Source: Acidimicrobiales bacterium | Lineage (GTDB): Bacteria; Actinomycetota; Acidimicrobiia; Acidimicrobiales; Aldehydirespiratoraceae | Assembly (NCBI GenBank): GCA_029263175.1 | Contig: JAJCXZ010000061.1 | Coordinates: 19,678 to 83,677 of the forward strand | Direction: 5' to 3' | Length of the DNA: 64,000 nt | In this document: piece by piece, positions 2,725 through 27,036 of the stretch | Numbering within the stretch: the first letter of the stretch is position 1 | How the letters are laid out: every line of letters begins with the position of its first letter | Translations under genes and position numbers: made by a program | The notes under the pieces: model-generated | The model's database searches: none | Seen by the model: only the letters and a program-made list of their open reading frames with translations | Told to the model about the DNA's origin: nothing

Positions 2725-4361
<1,637 letters not shown>

Positions 4362-19143: not shown

Positions 19144-20334
19144 ATGCGCACGAAGGTCGTGATCGTAGGAGGCGGCCCGGCAGGAATGTTGCTGTCCCAG
19201 ATCCTGCACCGCGCCGAGATCGACCACGTCGTTCTCGAGCGGCAGACTCGCAATTATGTGCTCGGGCGCATCCGCGCGGGCATTCTGGAGTGGAGCTCGG
19301 TCGAGGTCATCCGCGCCGCCGGTGTCAGCACTCGCATGGATGCCGAAGGCGAAGCCCACGACCTCGTCAACCTGGCCTGGGGCGGTGAGCATGTGCTTCC
19401 GATCCGGGTGAAGGAGCTCACCGGTCGTCAGATGATGGCTTACGGCCAAACAGAGTTGCAGCAGGATCTCTACAACGCGGCCGACGACAATGGCACCTCG
19501 CTGCTCTTCTCCGCCGACGATGTCGCCGTAAACGACGTCACAACCGAGTCGCCCCACGTGACCTTCCGCCACAACGGCGCCGACGAGCGGATCGACTGCG
19601 ACTACGTCGCCGGCTGCGACGGTTTCCATGGCGTCAGCCGAGCAGCAATCCCCGAGGCAGAACGCACCGAGTATGAACGCACGTACCCGTTTGGCTGGCT
19701 CGGCATTCTCTCGGAGACTCCACCACTCCCCCATCTCGTCTACACCAATCATGAGCGGGGCTTCGGTCTGTGCAGCACCCGTAACCCGATGCTCAGCCGG
19801 TATTACGTGCAGTGCCCGATCGAGGACCATGTCGACGACTGGAGCGACGATCGCTTCTGGTCCGAGCTCAGTGCTCGTCTCCCCGGCGAGGTGGCCGACC
19901 GGGTCGTCACCGGTCCGAGCATCGAGAAGTCGATCGCGCCGCTGCGGAGCTTCGTTGCCGAGCCCATGCGCTACGGCAACCTCTTCCTGGCCGGCGATTC
20001 CGCCCACATCGTTCCGCCCACGGGCGCCAAGGGCCTCAACCTCGCGGTCTCCGATGTGCACCTTCTGTCTCGAGCGCTCATCGCCCACTACCGAGACGGC
20101 GACACGGCACACCTCGACGGTTATTCCGGCGAGGCGCTCGAGCGGGTGTGGGGTTCGGTGCGGTTCAGTTGGTGGATGACCACGCTGTTGCACCGCTTCC
20201 CCGACATGACCGACTTCGATCAACGTCTGCAGGAACGGGAGCTGAGCTATCTCGCCTCATCCACCGCTGCCCAGGCGTCGATGGCCGAGCAATACGTCGG
20301 CATCCCGTTCGCCAACCCACCGGAAGAGGAGTAG
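19144..20334 (+). CDS. pobA: 4-hydroxybenzoate 3-monooxygenase (PobA)
   Basis: This 396-aa class A flavoprotein monooxygenase converts 4-hydroxybenzoate to protocatechuate with FAD, NAD(P)H and O2. It shows the N-terminal FAD motif GGGPAG (9-14), the PobA-type RIRAGILE segment near 41-48, the GCDGFHG motif near 159-165 and the second FAD motif GDSAHIVPPTGAKGLNLA near 285-302. Length equals that of known PobA enzymes. It is followed 3 bp later by ligA, so it feeds its product directly to the ring-cleavage dioxygenase of the same operon. Confidence 0.93.
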   Translation: MRTKVVIVGGGPAGMLLSQILHRAEIDHVVLERQTRNYVLGRIRAGILEWSSVEVIRAAGVSTRMDAEGEAHDLVNLAWGGEHVLPIRVKELTGRQMMAYGQTELQQDLYNAADDNGTSLLFSADDVAVNDVTTESPHVTFRHNGADERIDCDYVAGCDGFHGVSRAAIPEAERTEYERTYPFGWLGILSETPPLPHLVYTNHERGFGLCSTRNPMLSRYYVQCPIEDHVDDWSDDRFWSELSARLPGEVADRVVTGPSIEKSIAPLRSFVAEPMRYGNLFLAGDSAHIVPPTGAKGLNLAVSDVHLLSRALIAHYRDGDTAHLDGYSGEALERVWGSVRFSWWMTTLLHRFPDMTDFDQRLQERELSYLASSTAAQASMAEQYVGIPFANPPEEE

Positions 20335-20337
20335 GCC

Positions 20338-21619
<1,282 letters not shown>

Positions 21620-23314: not shown

Positions 23315-23872
23315 TTAGAAGGGCGATGTCTCGCCTTCGGGGACGTCGATCTGGTGGGTGTTGAGGAGCATCGAGATCATCGTGTAGTACCCCGATGTGG
23401 CGATGAGTTCGACGACCCCGACCTCGTCGAAGTGGGCGACCGCCGCTGCATACGTGGCGTCGTCGACCTGATGGTCCACGTGAAGGGCGCGGCAGAGCCG
23501 GTAGCAGGCTTCGTCGCGAGCATCAGCGAAAACCGGCTCGGAGCCGATCTTGATGGCCGCGATCACATCGTCGGGCACACCAGCTTCTCTCGCCATCGGC
23601 TCGTGGGCCCACCACTCGAACGGAGCCTGCCAGAACTGCCCGGCGACCAGGATGGCGAGTTCGACGAATCGACGGTCCACGACTGTCTTGCTTCGCACCG
23701 ACATCCCGACCCGGGCGAGGTTTCGCCCCAGTCCCCCGGCGAGGACCATGGCGTCGAACGGCCCGCCGAGGCGACCGTCATCTCCCAGCCCACGGAGACC
23801 GACGACATTGTCGAAATGGCGCCGCTGGCCCTCATCGAGCGATTCGTGGTCGAGCGGGTTCAGCCGGCTCAC
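23315..23872 (-). CDS. Carboxymuconolactone decarboxylase / AhpD-like protein
   Basis: This 185-aa helical protein is of the CMD family. The conserved core VVDRRFVELAILVAGQFWQAPFEWWAHEPMA has the usual arginine and EWWAH histidine segment but no CxxC, so it is the non-redox decarboxylase-like type rather than an AhpD peroxidase reductant. The GTG at 23872 overlaps the stop of the MerB-like gene (GTGA), so translation is coupled. It is the last gene of the minus-strand operon that includes aconitase X. Substrate unknown. Confidence 0.78.
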   Translation of the reverse strand: MSRLNPLDHESLDEGQRRHFDNVVGLRGLGDDGRLGGPFDAMVLAGGLGRNLARVGMSVRSKTVVDRRFVELAILVAGQFWQAPFEWWAHEPMAREAGVPDDVIAAIKIGSEPVFADARDEACYRLCRALHVDHQVDDATYAAAVAHFDEVGVVELIATSGYYTMISMLLNTHQIDVPEGETSPF

Positions 23873-24567
23873 GAATCGGTCTCGACTGGTCGAGGCAAAC
23901 GGGAACGCAGCTCCTTGAAGGCCGCGCCACCTTCCTCCGAACGGGTCCACGAGATGTAGTCGGATCGACCCCGTTGACGAAAGAAGGGATTGGAGAAGAT
24001 GTCAGCCCATTCGGCGACAGGCTTGAGGGCGGCCGACATGGAGTCGTCGTAGCCAACCCAGTTGCGAGCGTGTTCTTCCGACCGGAAGAGGTTCATGTTC
24101 GCTCATCTGAAGGGTCGGCTATCGGCCGAACCTCCGATTTCGGCACTCGTATAGCCAACCATCGGCTCCGGCTCGACCGTCACGATTTCCTCGTCACACA
24201 TCTCCAGGACCATGGCTTCGCCGCAACACAAACACGGCGCCTCGATCGTCACTGTCTTGCCCGGCACGAGCCAGCGAATGGCCGTGGCCTCCAGACCACA
24301 CTGCGCGTACCAGCCGCCCTGACCGTCGATTGTGACCTGGTACTGGGTGGGCTGCATGTTGAGAGGGGGAAACGATGCGAGAAGATCCGTGCCCGGATGC
24401 ACCCACCCTGGCGTCATGCCCACGAGCTCGTGCACGAGCTCTCGTGCCGCTTCGATCTCGATCTCGAGCTCAGCCGCAAGCTCGGTGAAGTGCGGGGCCC
24501 GCCCGGAGTCGATCACCGCGGACATGATCGCCGAGTAGCCACGGTCGAGTAGTTCAAGCTCTGCCAT
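23869..24567 (-). CDS. MerB-like (alkylmercury lyase family) protein with in-frame TGA: probable selenoprotein
   Basis: Read through the TGA at 24103-24105, this is a continuous 232-aa MerB-family protein: an N-terminal winged-helix-like region (about 1-55), then WYAQCGLEA (Cys90, Glu93), matching MerB Cys96 and Asp99, a CLCCGE zinc-like cluster (112-117), then DSRPFR-U155-ANMNLFRSEEHARNW. Position 155 aligns with catalytic Cys159 in MerB (FCCHVHFFAS). Taken as two ORFs, a 154-aa and a 75-aa piece would split the domain at its active site in the same frame. A GGTC-loop hairpin lies just downstream. Asp99 to Glu is a further difference. Start may be GTG at 24570. It is operonic with aconitase X; substrate may be an organometal or an unrelated C-metal/C-S bond. 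Confidence 0.82.
24074..24105 (-). promoter_or_regulatory. Candidate bacterial SECIS element following the in-frame TGA
   Basis: On the minus strand the TGA (24105-24103) is followed after 19 nt by the loop GGTC (24083-24080), closed by a perfect 6-bp stem TCTTCC (24089-24084) with GGAAGA (24079-24074). Known bacterial SECIS elements place a G-rich apical loop roughly 16-37 nt after UGA, and the E. coli fdhF element also has GGUC in its loop. Spacing, loop and position all fit. Confidence 0.7.
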
Positions 24568-24576
24568 CACACAGTT

Positions 24577-24996
24577 CTAGTCGTCGGCCGTCGGCCCATC
24601 ATCATGCGCGGCGTCGACCTCACAGAGATCAGTGGTGCCGGGCGACGGCATCTCATCGGCACCGACCTGCACGATCGGGCAGGTCACGCCATACAGCGCC
24701 TCCGCCACGATGACGCCGGCAATGAGGTTGACGTCCGCTTTGGTGACGACGAGCGCGGCGGGTCCGACACCAAGCCGAAGCGCCTCACCCAGGACGCCGG
24801 GAGTTCCCGAAGAGCCTCGCGAGCCGGGCATGGCGACGATCCGGCCGGTCATTGTCTGACCGACCTCGGGGTGGCTTCGATCGATGATCAGACCAGTCTT
24901 CGGGTCGAGACCGCCCCAGAAGCTGAGTGGCTCGCTCAGGACAAGCAACCGGCCGGTCGCCTGACCGGCGTGCAATGTGCGACCATCGATCTTCAC
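24577..24996 (-). CDS. Aconitase X small subunit (DUF126 swivelling domain)
   Basis: This 139-aa protein is the swivelling small subunit of bacterial aconitase X. Conserved blocks are GRLLVLSEPLSFWGGLDP, GLIIDRSHPEVGQTMTGRIVAMPGSRGS and GVLGEALRLGVGPAALVV. The serine in PGSRGSSGT is in the substrate-binding segment. It starts with GTG overlapping the stop of the large-subunit gene (GTGA). Aconitase X enzymes dehydrate hydroxyacids such as cis-3-hydroxyproline or mevalonate 5-phosphate; which applies here is unclear. Confidence 0.88.
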   Translation of the reverse strand: MKIDGRTLHAGQATGRLLVLSEPLSFWGGLDPKTGLIIDRSHPEVGQTMTGRIVAMPGSRGSSGTPGVLGEALRLGVGPAALVVTKADVNLIAGVIVAEALYGVTCPIVQVGADEMPSPGTTDLCEVDAAHDDGPTADD

Positions 24997-26252
24997 GCGC
25001 CCGCTCTTCGGCCCAGCCGGACTTCGCCGGCGATCGCTGAGGCCACACAGTCGGTAAGACTGGAGAAGACGACGTCGACTTCGAGGATCCCCGGGGCGTA
25101 GTACGCCCACTTGGCCGAGTTGGTCATCACCGTGCCGGTCACACCCGTCGCACGGGGCAGGTAGTAGGTGCAGGTGTCGAGCACCACGGCAAATCCCGCG
25201 GCCTCGAGAGTCGAGTCCCATCCGCGCAACTGAACCTCGGCCCACACCGATCGACTGGTGGTGACAATGGCGGTCACACTCGGATGCACCGTTGCCTCGC
25301 CCAGCACCGCGATCACCTCACCGAACTCGGCAACCGAGAAGTGCGGCGTGCCGAGGCACACGGCATTGACCGGCCCCGTAGTGACAGTCGATAGCCCCCC
25401 GAGCGTCGAACGAACCAGCGCCGCATCGACCACGGTCGTTCGCCGCGGTGCCCGGCCACCGGTTGCGTCCGACAGTGTCGGCGCTTCCGGAGTGACCCCG
25501 ACGACATGAAACATCTCGACGGCGCCGGCGGTGGCTGCAGCGGCGGCGATGGCCTTGAGATCGTCCTCGCCGGCCTCCCGAAGTCCGACGATCGCGGGAA
25601 CGGCAGCACCCGCCTGCCGACCGAGGATCAGGCCGAGAACGTGCGGCAGCCTCGGATCTTTCAGCTCCTCGTCGGAGAGGCGAAGCTCCAAAAGATGTGT
25701 GGCCAATCGGCCCTCGTCAGTGTGAAGGCCCACCAACGGCACCCGTCCGACGATGGCGGCGCTGATGTCGAGCAGGTCGCCGTACTTGTTGGTACGAGCA
25801 CCGAGGACCGAGTTGAAGAACCCGACCGCGTTCGACTCCGATCCGACGATCTGCTGGCCCAGACCGGGACGCCCTTCGGCCTGCTGGTACGGAGCACAGC
25901 TCCACATGGGCGTGCATCCGAGCTGTCGGTAGATCTCCATCAGCCGTTCTGCGCCGGAGACCTCCTCCGGAAAGGACGCCGCCGGGCGCAGTGCCGGCGA
26001 CGAGCGAGCGATCAGGCTGGCATTCGTGTGAGTTGGCACCGACAGCTGCGCCCCCTCGGCCAGCAGGAACTCGGCGAAGTCGAGCGACAACTTCCCCGAG
26101 TAGTGGCACGAGTTGATGTGAGCGAACTCGATCGGAACCAACGCGGTGGCACCGCTCGCCTCGGCCGCGGCGACGATGAGCTGCATGGCGAGCTGCTGTG
26201 CCCTGCCATCGTCGCCGGCCAGCCAGTGCTCCTCGGCGCCGGTGAGCTTCAT
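24993..26252 (-). CDS. Aconitase X large (catalytic) subunit, DUF521
   Basis: This 419-aa catalytic subunit is of the aconitase X family. Visible family motifs are HINSCHYSGK near 44-53, GSESNAVGFFNSVLGARTNKYGD, VPLVGLHTD, CLGTPHFS, LDTCTYYLPR and NSAKWAYYAPG. The cysteines in SCHYSG, CLGTPHFS and LDTCTY are the usual Fe-S ligands or active-site residues. The ATG at 26252 starts at the conserved MKLTGAEE. It is separated from the SDR gene by 13 bp and overlaps its small subunit. It is a dehydratase of a small hydroxyacid, substrate unknown. Confidence 0.88.
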   Translation of the reverse strand: MKLTGAEEHWLAGDDGRAQQLAMQLIVAAAEASGATALVPIEFAHINSCHYSGKLSLDFAEFLLAEGAQLSVPTHTNASLIARSSPALRPAASFPEEVSGAERLMEIYRQLGCTPMWSCAPYQQAEGRPGLGQQIVGSESNAVGFFNSVLGARTNKYGDLLDISAAIVGRVPLVGLHTDEGRLATHLLELRLSDEELKDPRLPHVLGLILGRQAGAAVPAIVGLREAGEDDLKAIAAAAATAGAVEMFHVVGVTPEAPTLSDATGGRAPRRTTVVDAALVRSTLGGLSTVTTGPVNAVCLGTPHFSVAEFGEVIAVLGEATVHPSVTAIVTTSRSVWAEVQLRGWDSTLEAAGFAVVLDTCTYYLPRATGVTGTVMTNSAKWAYYAPGILEVDVVFSSLTDCVASAIAGEVRLGRRAGA

Positions 26253-26265
26253 CACGACGAGTGCG

Positions 26266-27036
26266 CTAGGACCGCGGGTAGAGCGTCTCGGTGTTGCCGT
26301 CGACACCGATGATCTGCCCGGAGATGTGCCGTGCGTAGTCGCTGCACAGGTACACGATCAGATCCGCGATCTCTTCGGGATCGACGTAGCACTGCATCGA
26401 TGTGCCGATTGCATACATGCGTCGCACGACATCGGGATCGAGGTCCTCGTTGGCGGCGTGGTCCCTGATTACACCCTCCATGCGGTCGCCGTTGACGTTG
26501 CCGGGCACGATTCCGTTGACCCGGATGTTGTCGGGGCCGAGCTCCATGGCCAGCGACTCGGTGAACCCGCTGACCGCCCACTTCGCCGCGACATACGGCG
26601 AGCGGTTCGGGAAGCCGAGGATTCCGGCGGCCGACACCATGTTGATGATGGTGCCGTGCCGCTGGGCCTTGAATACCGGGGCGACCCGCCGGGCGCAATA
26701 GAACTGGGCATCGATACACACGGCCATCGTGAGCCGCCACTCTTCGTCGGTGACGTCTTCGACCGGCTTTGTCGGGCCACCGATGCCGGCGTTGTTCACC
26801 ATGATGTCGAGCCCGCCCGGAAGGATCTCGTCGAAGATCGTGTCGAGCTCCGCTGACTTGGTGACGTCGCACTGCCAAGTCGCGATGGAGTCGGGAAGCG
26901 TCGCCAGACCGTTCGGGTCGATATCGCAGGTGAAGACTTCCGCGCCGAGCCGGTCCATCGCCAGCGCCGTCGCACGCCCCATGCCGGCACCACCGGCGGT
27001 GATGAAGGCTCGCTTGCCTTCGAGTGAGATCTGCAC
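26266..27036 (-). CDS. SDR-family oxidoreductase
   Basis: This 256-aa classical SDR has an atypical glycine motif AGGAGMG near 13-19, NNAG near 83-86, the catalytic serine in NMVSAAG, YVAAK near 146-150 and a C-terminal GQIIGVDGN block. It lies 3 bp from the sulfotransferase-like gene and 13 bp from aconitase X, so it very likely acts in the same pathway, oxidising or reducing a hydroxyacid intermediate. Confidence 0.85.
   Translation of the reverse strand: MQISLEGKRAFITAGGAGMGRATALAMDRLGAEVFTCDIDPNGLATLPDSIATWQCDVTKSAELDTIFDEILPGGLDIMVNNAGIGGPTKPVEDVTDEEWRLTMAVCIDAQFYCARRVAPVFKAQRHGTIINMVSAAGILGFPNRSPYVAAKWAVSGFTESLAMELGPDNIRVNGIVPGNVNGDRMEGVIRDHAANEDLDPDVVRRMYAIGTSMQCYVDPEEIADLIVYLCSDYARHISGQIIGVDGNTETLYPRS

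Follow-up and report, generated by a model that had tools for sequence, protein, structure and literature searches.

In the organomercurial lyase MerB, Asp99 accepts a thiol proton and passes it to the leaving carbon, and the metal is bound by Cys96 and Cys159. Compared with sulphur, selenium is the better nucleophile and binds mercury more tightly. A MerB-like protein containing selenocysteine (Sec) is SaoL of the Sec-assisted organometal system, which carries the motif CU according to a table in PMC13188914. MerB homologues with altered signature residues are covered by the mer-gene survey of PMC8261052, which took Cys159 as a MerB signature and in whose main text the word selenocysteine is absent. 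Our literature search, outside which lay supplements and most subscription papers, returned no MerB-like selenoprotein besides SaoL and alkylmercury-lyase-like table entries (PMC9312934, PMC13188914), and a word search of PMC2398784, PMC5029168 and PMC12013277, supplements excluded, gave no match for MerB. Here we describe a minus-strand gene in a stretch of 64,000 nucleotides from an Acidimicrobiales bacterium (assembly GCA_029263175.1, contig JAJCXZ010000061.1, positions 19,678 to 83,677; "the window" in the following), which codes for a MerB-like protein with an in-frame TGA at the position of Cys159.

We interpret its product as a MerB-fold protein in which the TGA is read as Sec at the Cys159 site and which would cleave carbon-mercury or similar carbon-metal bonds, and put the probability of this combined reading at roughly 0.7. 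At the level of sequence it is based on the position of the TGA, the conservation and covariation of a hairpin downstream, the presence of Sec machinery genes, the constraint on the frame after the TGA and the conservation of the acid and of the Cys or Sec residues. From these we infer Sec insertion itself as well as carbon-mercury cleavage.

The reading frame and its in-frame TGA

Two minus-strand open reading frames (ORFs), 24103-24570 and 23869-24096, lie in one frame with TGA-GCG-AAC between them. This observation of the initial annotation is confirmed, and its proposal that both form one MerB-like protein of 232 residues holds as well. With a cut-off of 27, the Pfam MerB match spans the TGA with 52.5 bits in the raw frame, which rises to 60.1 bits once Cys is placed at the TGA. 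Protein homology is found on either side of the TGA. Comparisons with solved MerB by phmmer and HMMER place the TGA residue on Cys159 and the Cys and Glu of the motif YAQCGLE on Cys96 and Asp99, respectively, in agreement with the earlier placement of the TGA at a catalytic Cys and with the replacement of Asp99 by Glu.

Relatives do not decay behind the TGA: nonsynonymous divergence (dN) is lower than synonymous divergence (dS) downstream of it in every one of the 13 pairs formed with the window gene. A pseudogene or a sequencing error was rejected in view of this constraint, of the 47 TGA loci with a hairpin and of the covariation of the hairpin. It is very likely that the TGA is a Sec codon; we regard the insertion of Sec at this position as nearly certain, and the selenoprotein reading of the window gene is strongly supported.

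The modelled full-length protein has a MerB-like fold, and a MerB fold is accordingly a prediction of the model. The predicted fold, the N-terminal winged-helix-like domain and matches to Cys96, to the acid at 99 and to the metal ligand at 159 are shared with MerB (E. coli R831b MerB; PDB 1s6l, 3f0o; MerB2 5c17). The window protein differs from these in its TGA-encoded ligand 159 and its Glu for Asp99, in an identity of 16-22% in structural alignments, in a position below the NCBIfam equivalog cut-off and in a genome with no MerA over cut-off. Cys or Sec at 96 together with Asp or Glu at 99 occurs in all of the 46 readable loci (16 Cys/Glu, 22 Cys/Asp, 8 Sec/Glu); in the 47th, L117, the contig ends just after site 96, and Glu is seen.

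The predicted SECIS hairpin

The window gene shares with SelB-dependent selenoprotein genes such as E. coli fdhF a UGA with an adjacent hairpin whose loop contains G, and its GGUC loop is that of fdhF. The encoded proteins are unrelated, and the MerB-like hairpin, a predicted Sec insertion sequence (SECIS), differs in being kept nearly letter for letter across many subgroups. It starts 16 nt after the first base of the TGA and consists of a 6-bp stem and a 4-nt loop. For bacterial SECIS elements section 5 of PMC13188914 gives a loop of 3-9 nt, a stem of 4-16 bp, G in the first two loop positions, a spacing of 16-37 nt and an energy of at most -7.5 kcal/mol; the GGTC loop, 6 bp and 19 nt of the window hairpin fall within the geometric limits.

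The hairpin that the initial annotation had pointed out at normal spacing is present and recurs, with the GGTC loop, in 47 of 49 TGA loci inspected (the window, L135 and 18 phylum-sample loci included), a loop count which adds nothing alone because the script scanned preselected loci for TGA and GGTC; the stem lay outside its search pattern. TGA matches outside the 49 are G259:C172, G251, G302, G721:C59, G614:C54, G663:C9 and those of G680. An identical 14-nt core, CTCTTCCGGTCGGA, is found in 30 of 30 TGA loci of the 149-genome and class searches (duplicates left out) and in none of 17 Cys loci, a control that is partial because most of these Cys loci also have another peptide under the hairpin. 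The nearer Cys controls L119, L159 and L160 are likewise without the core. In 14 close homologues, five residues under the hairpin use a single codon each, a pattern seen in 0 of 53 other invariant, codon-degenerate columns of the same homologues, which bears out the earlier argument that the hairpin is beyond chance.

The pairing itself is conserved as well. In the alignment of the 47 loci (A5) 94.5% of pair cells are standard, and slid registers are never more than 60.5% paired. Four of the seven stem pairs have changed on both sides (6 cells), which was reached by 0 of 500 shuffles, although these shuffles ignore the relatedness of the loci. In L161, L162, L164 and L167 another peptide follows the Sec, and the hairpin is nonetheless rebuilt by compensating bases.

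Selenocysteine machinery and distribution of the family

The window genome, an assembly of 111 contigs that is 97% complete, contains selA (386 bits) with selB immediately behind it (278 bits; Pfam finds the SelB wing domain), a tRNA-Sec of 64 bits (gathering score 47) and selD (355 bits), so that selA, selB, selC and selD are all present. Its selD (L018:1399-2520, minus strand) has an in-frame TGA at the catalytic site (HGAGUGCK) and is predicted to be a selenoprotein gene itself.

Over cut-off, selA is frequent in any case, with matches in 104 of 149 genomes, and it was found in 1 of 14 control genomes. Of 31 genomes that have a TGA homologue 28 contain it, vs 12 of 20 with stop-free homologues only (one-sided Fisher p 0.014), a co-occurrence which is suggestive only; G251 and G302 entered this count as TGA genomes from weak matches, the site residue of G465 was not read, and outside it stand the weak-match stop-free genomes G165, G192, G237, G253, G359 and G403, G186 (TGA in the phylum sample only) and genomes new in the phylum sample. 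The three TGA genomes without a selA match are G474 (56% complete), G068 and G112.

Homologues are present in 21 of the 149 genomes searched (own genome included), in 40 of 395 genomes of the class sample and, with a different subfamily profile, in 37 of 396 genomes of the phylum sample. In the 149-genome set, the nine best matches apart from the window's own span the full length at 52-87% identity, with one TGA in each. From protein databases, 265 homologues came from one search and 3600 from another, in which scoring was confined to the 7996 candidates sharing most words; these homologues are known from protein entries alone, and 120 were listed per search. Among the 240 listed, 234 (117 + 117, the window's entry included) end one residue before the Sec site, three (P0003, P0006, P0010) are full-length with W at the site, probably as table-4 gene calls, and three (P0122-P0124) are full-length with Cys. 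Since so many listed entries end at the Sec codon, we consider the Sec MerB-like family to be large and, judging from these sequences, probably mis-annotated in databases. The selenoprotein is not rare; it belongs to a large actinobacterial family. Some entries ending at the Sec site (Acidimicrobiales, Gaiella) are named organomercurial lyase.

Cys at the Sec position, which the initial annotation had suggested looking for among homologues, is found in 17 loci, in L037, L040, L131, L132, L159 and L160, and in P0122-P0124. The Cys homologues have the codon TGC at the site, and the hairpin core sequence is missing. In a tree of 72 proteins P0122-P0124 are nested in a clade with seven Sec forms (support 100/98), and the Glu99 forms, single- and double-Sec, form one clade (100/100) on a long stem. 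At locus L115 (G373), a Sec MerB-like gene of the Glu99 kind converges with another that reads NCGWD; roughly 0.9 kb separates the two Sec codons, and a GGTC hairpin is present in each.

A second in-frame TGA lies exactly at MerB Cys96 in eight loci (L109-L114, L135 and L169; WYGQUGLE and similar) of the genomes G259 (twice), G283, G332, G450, G357, G167 and G689. With TGA at the positions of both Cys96 and Cys159, both MerB metal ligands would be selenium. The second TGA is followed by a GCTRGC/GCTGGC hairpin that is complete in 8 of 8 loci, vs 3 of 38 loci with Cys at 96 and 3 of the 16 nearest (Glu99 kind) Cys96 loci; this is a weaker case than the first hairpin, since the second was defined on the same eight loci. 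G680:C75:935-1600 also has two TGA and is not among the double-Sec loci inspected. In L134, L136, L137, L140 and L113 the MerB-like part runs in frame into a region resembling class III cyclases or AAA ATPases, which was Pfam-tested in L134 (Guanylate_cyc) and L140 (AAA) only. From its sequence, we regard the window gene as a new selenoprotein variant of a known fold, of which the two-Sec form is the most unusual part.

Function, rival readings and neighbourhood

We propose that binding of SelB to the hairpin, 19 nt behind the UGA, would bring in Sec-tRNA-Sec and so extend the product from 154 to 232 residues. Cys90 (MerB Cys96) and Sec155 (Cys159) would then serve as metal ligands, and Glu93 (Asp99) would accept the thiol or selenol proton before handing it to the leaving carbon; selenium may raise the affinity for scarce organomercury. 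The conservation of Cys/Sec96, of the acid at 99 and of site 159 argues for a MerB-type protonolysis, and we consider organometal cleavage of this type probable. Methylmercury as the natural substrate is less so.

Several observations weigh against a Sec-dependent organometal lyase. The bare hairpin has -6.5 kcal/mol, and flanking bases have to be included to reach the limit of -7.5 (-12.3 for a stretch of 45 nt starting at the TGA); the fold energy of a 54-nt stretch is ordinary compared to shuffles (z -0.29). Stability was consequently dropped as evidence, and the case for the hairpin rests on conservation instead. The window has a C-A mismatch in place of the outermost C-G pair. In alignment A5 the number of further pair types does not stand out against shuffles (183 of 500), and a slide by +1 has a covariation score of 0.111 vs 0.101 in the true register, though only 56.5% of its cells pair; the limits of the Cys control and of the covariation shuffles given above count likewise. 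L165 and L175 have TGA at the site without the GGTC hairpin. A TAG is in frame in L165 (G817:C379) and the match of L175 (G537:C3) is split over two frames, and both look like broken or misassembled copies. On the side of the machinery, the 111 contigs of the window assembly include 3.01% contamination and the sel genes are located on other contigs; G068 and G112 carry TGA-MerB and tRNA-Sec (67 bits) but no selA match, and G003 is without tRNA-Sec over cut-off. As to function, the window protein has Glu, not Asp, at position 99 and reaches 35.4 bits against an NCBIfam MerB equivalog cut-off of 193, the window genome has no MerA over cut-off (best 330.6 vs 454.45 bits), and MerA over cut-off was found in 5 of 43 TGA-MerB genomes tested.

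Alternatively, the gene could encode a true Sec protein of the MerB fold with another job, such as trapping or sensing metals through Sec/Cys, redox catalysis or the cleavage of other organometals or organometalloids. The change from Asp99 to Glu throughout a clade after a long branch, the scarcity of MerA together with the absence of mer genes among recurrent neighbours, and the in-frame cyclase-like or AAA extensions of some double-Sec relatives would fit such a role, as would the 99Ser variants of MerB that bind other metals according to PMC8261052. However, an acid at 99 and Cys or Sec at 96 and 159 in 46 of 46 loci are as expected for the protonolysis triad, Asp99 is kept in 22 of the 46, and in G167 MerA is located about 3 kb from the gene. 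We consider another job unlikely. Membership in SaoL, for which a MerB-like character, Sec and a weak similarity to the SaoL hidden Markov model (HMM; NF040728) would speak, is very improbable and was rejected on the curated cut-off and the CU motif: the scores are 31.2 bits for the window, 55.1 for L118, 37.5 for L109 and 19.3 for L124 with a cut-off of 140, and the motif here is xU, where x is never Cys in 46 loci and is Arg in the window. A Pfam scan of 10 window neighbours, which did not extend to sao HMMs, matched no transporter family.

That the TGA is a real stop, with a functional product of 154 residues and a relic downstream, is the reading implied by the 234 of 240 listed database gene calls ending there. 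We give it hardly any weight given the downstream constraint in all 13 pairs, the covariation of the hairpin, the full-length Cys relatives and the GTG start of the next gene, a carboxymuconolactone-decarboxylase (CMD)-like gene, which overlaps the final TGA of the MerB-like frame (GTGA) and suggests translational coupling to the full-length frame. Reading of the UGA by near-cognate Trp or Cys readthrough, with Sec incidental, is similarly improbable. In three JGI gene calls the site residue is given as W, which is what translation under table 4 would yield, but the codon is TGA or a Cys codon in every locus read and never TGG, the hairpin is conserved, the sel genes are present, and other window ORFs end in TGA under table 11.

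For Actinomycetota at large, we see an even chance that the MerB-fold Sec proteins form a large, database-truncated superfamily of Sec organomercurial lyases, probably with thousands of members, in which Sec takes the place of Cys159 and, along one branch, of Cys96 as well, giving a two-selenium site that would break carbon-mercury bonds, and in which a nearly invariant SECIS is joined by a second one in the double form. If true, this would constitute a hidden aerobic methylmercury sink and a natural comparison of S/S, S/Se and Se/Se chemistry within one fold. With Cys/Cys, Cys/Sec and Sec/Sec forms of the same metal-binding site available in nature, the contribution of selenium would become testable outside redox chemistry. 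Gene calls stop at the UGA, yet some entries carry the organomercurial lyase name; should the enzymes prove active, an uncounted demethylation capacity would lie in actinobacteria that have no recognised mer operon. A survey based on Cys159 as the MerB signature, such as that of PMC8261052, would miss Sec MerB-like genes; the same paper reports MerB without MerA in 895 genomes.

The features of the locus are listed in Table 1. The initial annotation had placed the gene inside a catabolic operon, a setting that did not prove general: of the compared loci, L045 and L046, two of the three relatives from the same genus, are the only ones that have both subunits of aconitase X (AcnX), a sulfotransferase and an Amdase-like gene as neighbours. 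This context therefore says little about function, and a catabolic role was rejected as a general feature. The third same-genus relative, L047, instead has the CMD/LigAB side, and weak matches to the SDR (28-33%) were seen in four further loci. ORF clusters present at at least 4 loci (26 related loci plus the window) comprise the MerB-like gene, its antisense frame and generic families only, namely SDR (7), cyclase-like (5), CoA ligase (4) and ABC ATPase (4), where, apart from the Pfam-tested cases, the families were named by eye. Among the loci compared, neither a specific neighbour nor a mer gene is recurrent.

Table 1. Features at the Sec-MerB-like locus (positions in the window)
Feature	Position	Strand	Remarks
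CMD-like gene	23315..23872	minus	Pfam CMD 20.4 bits, under cut-off 23
Sec-MerB-like coding sequence	23869..24567	minus	232 residues + stop; start ATG 24567; final TGA 23869-23871
Predicted SECIS hairpin TCTTCC-GGTC-GGAAGA	24074..24089	minus	GGTC loop 24080-24083; 19 nt TGA-to-loop
In-frame TGA, predicted Sec, residue 155 = MerB Cys159	24103..24105	minus	HMMER alignment to PDB MerB + 47 loci (alignment A5)
Glu93 codon GAG = MerB Asp99	24289..24291	minus	acidic in 46/46 loci read
Cys90 codon TGT = MerB Cys96	24298..24300	minus	TGA in 8 related loci; alignment to solved MerB
ORF holding AcnX swivel subunit	24577..25245	minus	5' part overlaps next gene
AcnX large subunit	24993..26306	minus	neighbour, not conserved partner

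Further along the window, at 19144-21590, lies an aromatic monooxygenase-like gene (by eye) with LigAB-like ring-cleavage genes nearby (LigB Pfam-tested), which is common to L047 of the same genus. In G167, a single-contig genome, MerA and a MerR-family regulator are both found no more than about 3 kb away from the double-Sec gene, from which further ORFs separate them. A TGA in the flavoprotein of G000:C21, considered as a Sec codon, is only its normal stop. In L182 (G149:C16:200235-201584), near 4347, a flavoprotein resembling MerA and lipoamide dehydrogenase, whose match starts 38 nt after the end of a MerA match, has a TGA at the first Cys of its redox motif (GGTUINVGCIPTK) with a hairpin after it, and is possibly a second selenoenzyme.
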